A stretch of 64,000 nucleotides of DNA. Origin: Gracilinema caldarium DSM 7334 (GTDB lineage: Bacteria > Spirochaetota > Spirochaetia > Treponematales > Breznakiellaceae). The stretch spans positions 434,001-498,000 of the forward strand of contig NC_015732.1 in NCBI RefSeq assembly GCF_000219725.1, given 5' to 3'. How positions within the stretch are numbered: position 1 is the stretch's first letter; each line of letters begins with the position of its first letter. Under the pieces are notes generated by a model, which was not told the DNA's origin, ran no database searches, and saw only the letters and a program-made list of their open reading frames with translations. Position numbers and translations under genes: made by a program. Below, in pieces: positions 50,440 to 61,366 of the stretch.

Positions 50440-51994
<1,555 letters not shown>

Positions 51995-52138
51995 TAAATA
52001 ATGAGGTATCGATAAGAGCCTCATGAAAAGCTTCGAAAGAAGCTCAAGCATTCCGAAAGGGATGTACAGTATTCGTATCCGGCTGGGATACGGGTACACC
52101 GCTCTCTTTTGTAGTCTACTTCTTTTCCCTTTTTATAT

Positions 52139-52212
52139 GGGCCAGTAGCTCAGTCGGTTAGAGCACTTCTCTGATAAGGAAGGGGTCAGTAGTTCAACTC
52201 TACTCTGGCCCA
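52139..52212 (+). tRNA. tRNA-Ile (anticodon GAT)
   Basis: Acceptor GGGCCAG pairs with CTGGCCC; D arm GCTCAGTCGGTTAGAGC, anticodon loop CTGATAA with GAT, T arm with AGTTCAACT. The discriminator is A and CCA is not encoded. It lies between 16S and 23S of operon 1. Confidence 0.96.
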
Positions 52213-52241
52213 TATTTCAAATCTAAAGGATTTGAAATATG
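52211..52241 (+). repeat. Perfect 12-bp hairpin at the 3' end of tRNA-Ile
   Basis: CATATTTCAAAT (52211-52222) pairs with ATTTGAAATATG (52230-52241) around a 7-nt loop. It overlaps the last two bases of the tRNA and is probably a processing signal; operon 2 lacks it. Confidence 0.6.
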
Positions 52242-52361
52242 GAAAATGCATGTAAAAGTGCATAATAATGGTATTTGACAGGGTGCTCACTGAGAAGAGA
52301 GCGACGAGGGAAGGGCAAGAAGAAGACGTTCTTACGGGAGTAAGAGCGGGAACGATAATAT

Positions 52362-55334
<2,973 letters not shown>

Positions 55335-55454
55335 ATTATCGTTCTAGTATACACCTTCTTGCCGACGACTCTTACCCCTGTCTAACAGGATAATGAACCG
55401 GATACATACCGTTGTGTCGGTCATATGTCACGATCTTTATAACCTAGTAAGTAT
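55335..55454 (+). other. 23S-5S spacer of operon 1
   Basis: No gene. A small hairpin CCTGT-CTA-ACAGG differs by two bases in operon 2 (CCTGT-TTA-GCAGG), as does one base in the following stretch. Confidence 0.6.
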
Positions 55455-55573
<119 letters not shown>

Positions 55574-55678
55574 TTTTTTGAAATCCTTCGTTTTAATGCG
55601 TATATATATAGTATCAAACACAATAGTTCCAGTTTTAACTCAAATGCAGTTAAGTATGGCTCTGGTGTTTTGACAGTG
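55574..55678. other. Short gap between the two rRNA operons
   Basis: About 105 bp, A+T rich, no gene. A lone consensus TTGACA (55670-55675) lacks a convincing -10 box. Confidence 0.5.
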
Positions 55679-55718
55679 CCAAGCTGCGAAAAAAAATAAA
55701 AAAATAGCAGCAAGGTGC

Positions 55719-55746
55719 TTGACAAGCAAAAGCGGGATGTGATAAG
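55719..55746 (+). promoter_or_regulatory. rRNA promoter, operon 2
   Basis: TTGACA (55719-55724), 16 bp, extended -10 with GATAAG (55741-55746), identical to operon 1. Its leader to 55,986 matches that of operon 1 except for two or three bases. Confidence 0.75.
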
Positions 55747-55986
55747 TTCTCGCCTGTCGCTGCGAAAGCGACGGGAAGCTGGCACGAAAGTTGCTAGCAA
55801 ATAGAAAAGCCTGAGCAGTAACGAAGTGTTATTGAGGGCGCGATGATCTTTGGTAAATGTAGGGAAGGGAAGTAGACATAGAGAAATCTATGCAGCCACT
55901 TCTGTACTGGAAGGTGCAGGAGAGAGCGTACAAGATAGAGCAGGACTCTAATGGTAATCTTTCGGGCTTCGGCCCGTAAGAAATAT

Positions 55987-57530
<1,544 letters not shown>

Positions 57531-57755
57531 ACAGTGAAAGGTACAAACCTGCAAAGGCAGGTTATATTGAAAGTTTGTAAGAGCTTTCAAGCAGTAGTTT
57601 CGTAAGAAAGTACTGTACAGTAGCTTCGTAAGAAGCTATTACGTATTCGTATCCGGCTGGGATACGGGTACACCGCTCTCTTTTGTAGTCTACTTCTTTT
57701 CCCTTTTATTTGAATATAACGCAGGGAGACTTGCGATATAGATAACCGTCTGAGC

Positions 57756-57829
57756 GGGGATATAGCTCAGCTGGCTAGAGCGGCGGCTTTGCAAGCCGTA
57801 GGTCAGGGGTTCGAATCCCCTTATCTCCA
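57756..57829 (+). tRNA. tRNA-Ala (anticodon TGC)
   Basis: Acceptor GGGGATA pairs with TATCTCC (one G-U); D arm GCTCAGCTGGCTAGAGC, anticodon arm CGGCT-TTGCAAG-CCG with TGC, T arm GGGGTTCGAATCCCC. Discriminator A; CCA is not encoded. Confidence 0.96.
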
Positions 57830-58002
57830 AAAGGTCTTTGAATGACAGGAAATTGGGGATTCGAAGGCCGCGCAGCGCATCGTGAATACGATGAAAAGCG
57901 TGCAGGGATGCACGCGGCAGCAAGCGGCCCGGCCTGGAGTGAAGTTTCGTGATGGAACTGAACGGAAGGCGAATCCCCTTATCTCCAAGACATGGGGATT
58001 CG
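57812..58002 (+). mobile_element. Insertion bounded by a duplicated tRNA-Ala 3' end, with a predicted three-way junction
   Basis: The last bases of tRNA-Ala, CGAATCCCCTTATCTCCAA (57812-57830), recur exactly at 57970-57988. Each copy is followed by GGGGATTCG (57855-57863 and 57994-58002), which can pair with CGAATCCCC. Inside, GGCCGC (57866-57871) pairs with GCGGCC (57924-57929) around two hairpins (CATCGT-GAAT-ACGATG and GCGTGC...GCACGC). The layout resembles a small insertion at a tRNA 3' end; it contains no ORF. Confidence 0.55.
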
Positions 58003-58154
58003 ACGTTGGAAACGACGAGAAAACCCAAAAGATGCTGCGACCTGGAAGGGAACGCAAGCAGTGGTATTTGACAGGGTGCTCACTGAGAAGAGAGCGACGA
58101 GGGAAGGGCAAGAAGAAGACGTTCTTACGGGAGTAAGAGCGGGAACGATAATAT

Positions 58155-61127
<2,973 letters not shown>

Positions 61128-61247
61128 ATTATCGTTCTAGTATACACCTTCTTGCCGACGACTCTTACCCCTGTTTAGCAGGATAATGAACCGGATACAT
61201 ACCGTTGTATCGGTCATATGTCACGATCTTTATAACCTAGTAAGTAT
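61128..61247 (+). other. 23S-5S spacer of operon 2
   Basis: No gene. It is nearly identical to that of operon 1, with the hairpin variant CCTGT-TTA-GCAGG. Confidence 0.6.

Positions 61248-61366
<119 letters not shown>

Follow-up and report, generated by a model that had tools for sequence, protein, structure and literature searches.

In Escherichia coli, tRNA-linked repeats (TLRs) have been on record since 1978, and a paper of 2021 still gave no known function for them (PMC8144298). They number 22 in ten loci, and 18-19 bp of their 3' end are identical to the tRNA or rRNA upstream (PMC8144298). The set comprises the 178-bp repeats of tyrT/rttR, repeats behind lysV, lysT/W/Y/Z/Q and arg genes, and rrA, rrB and rrF. 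RrA/B/F come from three rRNA operons, in each of which they lie between two terminators; they are transcribed and processed and bind CsrA, with Hfq reported as well, and RNase E recognition has been proposed for the copy of the host 3' end (T) in RrB (PMC8144298).

The repeats considered here were encountered in the window, the whole stretch of 64,000 nucleotides of Gracilinema caldarium DSM 7334 (NC_015732.1, positions 434,001 to 498,000) that was analysed. They are TLRs by the published definition, being placed in tRNA or rRNA operons with one to several units per locus, an assignment made by layout and not by descent of the cores. Like the E. coli TLRs, the spirochaete units copy the 3' end of the upstream gene at their own 3' end, occur in tandem arrays and form stable hairpins. 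Terminators are found before and after the repeat in E. coli rrnB (PMC8144298) and, by eye, at lysV, and likewise in the orthologous spirochaete tRNA-Met loci L179, L180 and L181, where the order tRNA, terminator, unit, second terminator resembles T1-rrB-T2 of rrnB. The two groups differ in the span of T, which reads from nt 58-59 through CCA in the E. coli tRNA repeats and from nt 56 through nt 74 in the spirochaete units, and in their hosts, which in spirochaetes include tmRNA and a 16S-23S spacer. A second, antisense copy of the host (T') is weaker in E. coli than in the spirochaete units: in the K-12 regions examined (tyrT, rrnB and eight tRNA regions) a T copy is present at 11 of 41 tRNAs, and T' matches there at 6-9 of 11 positions. 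The lysV and lysQ repeats consist of a terminator, GATTCGAACC (an antisense T-loop motif, 9 of 11), a core and T, while rrB has the antisense T-loop motif GCGGATTTGAAC and the GGA hairpin GCGGGCAGGACGCCCGC. The preferred reading, to which we give a probability of about 0.45, is that the window unit is a TLR-like small-RNA module of spirochaetes which would be transcribed with or past tRNA and rRNA genes and would titrate CsrA.

The unit in the window

The window contains two tandem rRNA operons (50440-61365), separated by about 0.4 kb from the first 5S to the next 16S and carrying differing spacer tRNAs (Ile, Ala). The unit lies behind the tRNA-Ala gene of the second operon and is composed of the following features.

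57756..57829, + strand: host gene tRNA-Ala(UGC), in the 16S-23S spacer of the second rRNA operon
57812..57830, + strand: original T segment, tRNA-Ala nt 56-73 plus one base (T-loop-rule numbering)
57831..57854, + strand: spacer s between tRNA-Ala and T' (by eye)
57855..57865, + strand: T', antisense copy of tRNA-Ala nt 54-64 (GGGGATTCGAA), 5' strand of helix P1
57866..57931, + strand: first arm of the core, helix P2 enclosing hairpins P3 and P4 (fold, covariation)
57866-57871 with 57924-57929, plus inner pairs: P2 (fold)
57878-57893: hairpin P3 (fold)
57898-57915: hairpin P4, with GGA in the loop (fold)
57932..57970, + strand: second arm of the core, hairpin P5 with purine internal loops (fold)
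57970..57988, + strand: T, the tRNA-Ala 3' end repeated exactly in direct orientation; the 3' strand of P1 comes from its first part
57994..58003, + strand: second, truncated T', the start of a partial second unit

An earlier note on this DNA had described a 19-bp exact repeat of the tRNA-Ala 3' end, and the repeat is there, at 57812-57830 and 57970-57988 (19/19, 158 from start to start), with 139 nt between the two copies. Each copy is followed, as that note also had it, by a sequence capable of pairing, GGGGATTCGA(A), at 57855-57865 and 57994-58003. The nested three-way junction that it proposed is recovered when the unit is folded alone, P1 (T' with T) closing a branch of P2, with P3 and P4, and P5. 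The segment 57810-58010 folds at -85.1 kcal/mol (z -4.84), none of 200 shuffles being as good, and the unit together with the whole tRNA-Ala still gives a z of -4.28. No terminator is seen by eye in spacer s (57831..57854), which agrees with the need of the operon for read-through to the 23S gene. The block, described there as having no ORF, holds short and mechanical reading frames only, one of 36 aa lying wholly inside. An imperfect direct repeat of 17 nt (CAGTAGTTTCGTAAGAA, spacing 26) is found earlier in the same spacer, at 57592-57634, within a palindrome.

Search for related units

G. caldarium H1 (DSM 7334, also Spirochaeta or Treponema caldaria) is credited with three rRNA operons (PMC3739177), of which two are within the window and the spacer of the third is found at 1.99 Mb. 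The third operon carries the window block with 96-98% identity and one change in the T copy, and the first, with its tRNA-Ile spacer, does not carry it. No unit is present in the 16S-tRNA-Ala(TGC)-23S spacers of three relatives that were read (L036, L039, L040), which argues against an ancient spacer segment shared by all relatives without a repeat border. In one of these spacers (L036 1519-1545, genome G021) the tRNA is followed by GATAAGGGGATT, which is antisense to the tRNA 3' end and has no core behind it; this stretch is perhaps a vestige of a unit.

When 58 relatives were searched at the DNA level with a loose threshold, many of the matches were due to chance; the better ones lie behind tRNA-Pro (L024), tRNA-Glu (L025), tRNA-Ala (L026), tRNA-Arg (L027) and tRNA-Leu (L031), with a further unit at a contig end that has a tRNA-Ala-like tail (L016). 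Twelve aligned units were used to build a covariance model, R1, in whose consensus 22 of 29 pairs are changed on both sides. R1 matches the window at 57855-57979 with 119.8 bits (E 1.6e-29), a score that is not independent because the window sequence is among the 12 builders; independent support comes from the many units elsewhere. The genome of G. caldarium (G000) has seven strong R1 units, an eighth match at E 0.54 being ignored, and further copies, for which the earlier note had suggested a search, are present among them. Of 39 genomes sampled from the family, 27 have an R1 match at the threshold used and the other 12 have none; of 198 sampled from the phylum, 19 have one at E <= 1e-5 with stricter filters.

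A pattern of 26-29 bases run over species genomes yielded 71 stretches, 57 titled as spirochaete and 14 as other. R1 confirmed two of these 14, L304 (Planctomycetota) and L284, the latter a 5.9-kb contig labelled Tannerella which has no tRNA found on it and is perhaps misbinned. The Planctomycetota bin G287 (OFTM94) contains three units, L304, L330 and L332, behind tRNA-Leu, tRNA-Ser and tRNA-Leu respectively, each of which has T', GGA loops and a T that copies the end of its tRNA, imperfectly in one case. In L304 the CCA end is encoded in the tRNA-Leu gene and is included in the T copy. These units may reflect ancient spread or transfer between phyla.

A single insertion in one operon is thus rejected, as the family is dispersed, and on the sequence evidence the window unit belongs to a family of structured repeats that are linked to tRNA genes and scattered over spirochaete genomes. 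No description of the spirochaete units was found among the open PMC papers listed for the terms used. A known Rfam RNA is also rejected, because no model reaches its gathering score on the units: Rfam 15 gives no family at gathering score on the window unit, and on six related loci (E <= 1) it gives neither RF00391 (RtT RNA) nor any gathering-score match on a unit. On the opposite strand of L016 there is one weak AgrB match (29 bits against a gathering score of 40, E 0.22).

R1 was also run on E. coli sequences. It has no match on eight tRNA loci, three of which hold T copies, and at the tyrT repeats it reaches 5.9-6.8 bits (E 0.5-0.8), with a 9.1-bit match elsewhere in the same stretch. At rrB, which was chosen for its likeness and not blindly, it reaches 17.1 bits (E 2.4e-4 in 801 nt). 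These scores do not establish homology between the spirochaete cores and those of the E. coli TLRs.

Host genes and the matching ends

The collected units make up 171 entries (125 + 46), from which 24 without an ARAGORN tRNA upstream in the available stretch and three duplicates were set aside, leaving 144 distinct units with a tRNA. A typical unit consists of T' (antisense, host nt 54-64), a core of about 105 nt and T (direct, host nt 56-73/74). T (nt 56-73) matches the host at 18 of 18 positions in 95 of the 144 units and at 16 or more in 111; when it was compared with tRNAs for other amino acids, not one of 2587 comparisons was perfect. T' (antisense nt 54-64) matches at 11 of 11 positions in 93 of the 144 units and at 10 or more in 118, against a full match in 8 of 2508 comparisons with tRNAs for other amino acids. 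Mean T' matches are 10.2 for the host and 7.9 for other tRNAs, the latter value being explained by the part of T' that is invariant in all tRNAs.

The start of T at nt 56 is sharp, with no upstream extension in 72 of 79 units that have a good T, and in 63 of the 79 the match goes beyond nt 73 by one base or more, a count inflated by the inner units of tandem arrays. A T copied from the mature tRNA is unlikely, as the match in these 63 units runs into the trailer. Position by position over nt 54-63, T' agrees with the host in 91-98% of 103 units. It remains intact in 18 of the 24 units that have a decayed T, compared with 54 of the 79 with a good one, and so seems to follow the tRNA and not T.

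The hosts are tRNAs of 16 amino acids and tmRNA, or, by label, 32 tRNA labels (two more are placeholders) plus tmRNA, which is found upstream of units in five loci. Among the 125 units, 22 have no ARAGORN tRNA upstream; seven of these stand behind tmRNA, four, by eye, behind an apparent displaced tRNA 3' half (one of them only probably) and 11 have no host assigned, ten of the latter having at most 291 nt of upstream sequence available and one, L107, having 1500 nt. A very similar unit to that of L107 (1501-1623) is found in another genus in L109 (249-355), neither has a tRNA found nearby or a recognisable T, and both are possible free-standing copies. Arrays often end, by eye, in a partial unit, as in the window and in L120, L121, L137, L157, L159, L160 and L161.

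The position of T suggests a familiar alternative. Attachment sites of genomic islands in tRNA genes consist of a direct repeat of the tRNA 3' end that starts in the T-loop, and the unit could be the remnant of an element which was placed by a tRNA-targeting integrase, duplicated the attachment site as T and lost its cargo. A T that runs from nt 56 in the T-loop to beyond nt 73 is possible for such a duplication, and by eye several units lie behind apparent displaced tRNA 3' halves (two in L131, one in L124 and probably one in L165). In L131 (Breznakiella homolactica) the two units, 726-849 and 2252-2375, are about 1.5 kb apart, and the first follows an apparent tRNA-Met 3' half without a 5' half, like the far end of a tRNA-integrated island. 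The units differ from island attachment sites, however, in having no cargo, a conserved core, an inverted copy and tandem arrays. The core is conserved with compensatory change and is therefore not debris, T' and the arrays are left unexplained by integration, and the 139 nt between the window T copies hold short frames only, with no integrase gene or cargo. A search of 50,697 phage records with 57830-58000 gave no match at E 1e-5, and a phage origin of the block is rejected on this ground. The remnant reading is accordingly very improbable. Mere target-site duplication is likewise rejected, because it cannot yield an inverted T' and because the antisense match of T' extends in L025, L121, L140 and L141 into nt 50-55, beyond the usual start of T. 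Of the insertion proposed in the earlier note, the block bounded by a duplication of the tRNA 3' end is confirmed, and its origin as an integrated mobile element stays a conjecture: T' and T match whichever tRNA lies upstream, which target-site duplication alone does not explain.

Another reading is a role in the maturation or quality control of the host tRNA, in which T', antisense to the T-loop and the 3' strand of the T-stem, would compete with tRNA folding and T would serve as a decoy or as a cleavage signal for 3'-end nucleases. The close match of T' to its host and its persistence beside decayed T copies fit such a device, as does the way in which T' tracks the tRNA between related tRNA-Met genes: L229 and L255 differ in the T-stem (CCAA versus CCTT), and T' and T differ accordingly. 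The RNase E recognition proposed for the T copy of RrB (PMC8144298) would also be in keeping with it. Against this, a terminator-like hairpin precedes the first unit in 21 of 82 cases (2.2 in shuffles), or in 16 of 82 under a stricter test (0.5 in shuffles), and with a terminator between tRNA and unit, transcripts seldom include T'. The majority of G. caldarium tRNAs have no unit (seven strong units for 48 tRNA matches), the same is true of whole genomes (12 of the 39 of the family at threshold), and the minimum free energy fold of tRNA plus unit keeps the acceptor and T stems of the tRNA, although the centroid does not. As the GGA loops of the core are not explained either, this role seems improbable.

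Conserved structure, CsrA and inheritance

In an alignment fitted to the model, 94.2% of the cells pair, 26 of 28 pairs change on both sides, and the covariation score is 0.621, against 0.169 in shuffled and at most 0.098 in slid controls. The check for structure with covariation proposed in the earlier note is in this way borne out across the family. Helix P2, which is absent from R1, forms in 101 of 119 minimum free energy folds, and its strands pair with their own partners at -17.0 kcal/mol compared with -10.7 (sd 3.8) for strands of other units. Helix mismatches are GA rather than CU in a ratio of 107 to 12, with 80 of the 107 in the inner part of P5, and GU exceeds AC by 52 to 33 overall, though not in P4 alone (8 to 11). 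These biases suggest that the strand at work is the tRNA-sense one in single-stranded form, RNA being the simplest case.

GGA is present in 112 of 114 P4 loops, 99 of 114 P5 loops and 20 of 102 P3 loops, and the commonest P4 loops are CAUGGAUG, CAGGAUG and CAGGGAUG. The CsrA SELEX consensus is RUACARGGAUGU, with the hairpin loop closed by AC/GU (PMC7652899), and P4 loops such as C-ANGGAU-G resemble it. CsrA-sequestering RNAs of the CsrB/CsrC type share with the units GGA hairpin loops near this consensus; the units differ in being linked to tRNA and rRNA genes, in having at most two GGA hairpins per unit in the model and in that their CsrA binding is putative. In the preferred reading the sense strand of the unit would act as an RNA, transcribed with its host gene, constitutively in the rRNA operon of the window and by terminator read-through elsewhere. 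It would fold independently because T' pairs with T, would be freed by the tRNA 3'-end-trimming enzymes, and its GGA loops would titrate CsrA and so tie CsrA activity to rRNA and tRNA transcription. Arrays would grow and shrink through recombination between T copies. The earlier note had left the choice between a non-autonomous element and a domesticated processing structure; the likeness to the E. coli TLRs points to a small-RNA module and not only to a processing structure.

Several observations weigh against CsrA titration, which is a putative function suggested by the loops. The csrA gene found in G. caldarium and in 35 of the 39 family genomes fits titration, but no csrA match is found in the incomplete bins G009, G014, G016 and G022, all four of which carry units; being near universal, csrA is uninformative as a discriminator. 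The window unit offers GGA in one hairpin loop only, that of P4, the terminal loop of its P5 having none. The P4 stem is long in many units, and CsrA may be disfavoured by stems of very high stability. Terminator-like hairpins before part of the units would cut their expression, and titration accounts neither for T' nor for its continued agreement with the tRNA once T has decayed.

The bins without csrA, the upstream terminators and the unexplained T' are the reasons for retaining, as an unlikely but serious competitor, a selfish element that would sit behind T-arm genes, take or copy its ends from the target and use its structure for its own spread. REP/BIME and MITE repeats are, like the units, small, non-coding, hairpin-rich, multicopy and patchy, and the unit would be a non-autonomous element of their kind. 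Units are differently placed from such repeats, standing behind T-arm genes in nearly all resolved cases, with ends that copy the neighbouring gene. Wide hosts, with 32 tRNA labels and tmRNA, and common decayed and truncated copies would fit a selfish element, and so would patchy presence: among four genomes of the genus, tRNA-Lys(TTT) has a partial unit in G002 and none in G000, G001 and G003. In another genus, R1 (E <= 0.1) matches 12 of 31 loci, 30 of them obtained by a tRNA-Met query of 39 genomes and the other being L180, not all of which are confirmed as one gene. Of nine tRNA-Met-type loci inspected by eye, L180, L229 and L230 have a full unit, L233 and L255 retain T' and T but have a core between them that is short or diverged, L237, L254 and L257 are plainly empty, and L232 has no unit within the 230 nt read.

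The similarity of cores bears on both selfish spread and inheritance. One unit per genome and label was used, 90 being kept from 111 (two labels are placeholders) after 14 of 125 entries had been dropped as gappy or unlabelled. Units behind different tRNAs of one genome resemble each other at 0.628, compared with 0.597 for shuffled labels (0/1000), as expected of a selfish element, while units behind the same tRNA in different genomes do so at 0.677, compared with 0.612 (0/1000), which argues for much vertical descent and against it. Clustering purely by genome or purely by tRNA is rejected, as both signals are present, and the units have in part been passed on together with their tRNA and in part been spread or homogenised inside genomes. 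The selfish element is further opposed by the inverted T', which target duplication does not give, and by the finding that among the 125 units, where long upstream sequence is available, a host is missing only for L107.

A combination of spread and function can also be envisaged, in which a propagating module colonises T-arm genes (tRNA, tmRNA) in several phyla, supplies CsrA-binding RNA tied to tRNA and rRNA transcription and rebuilds its inverted and direct ends from each new host by an undescribed kind of copying; we regard it as a rather long shot. Given that the E. coli TLRs are without a known function, the large conserved spirochaete set with its covariation provides comparative data on such repeats, pointing to GGA loops of the CsrA type, to a constant antisense copy of the T-arm and to tmRNA as a host. 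It also poses the evolutionary puzzle of a repeat that keeps both of its ends matched to whichever tRNA precedes it. The units of L129 and L143 contain, in addition, an extra hairpin-rich insertion (e.g. L129 1023-1208, 186 nt).
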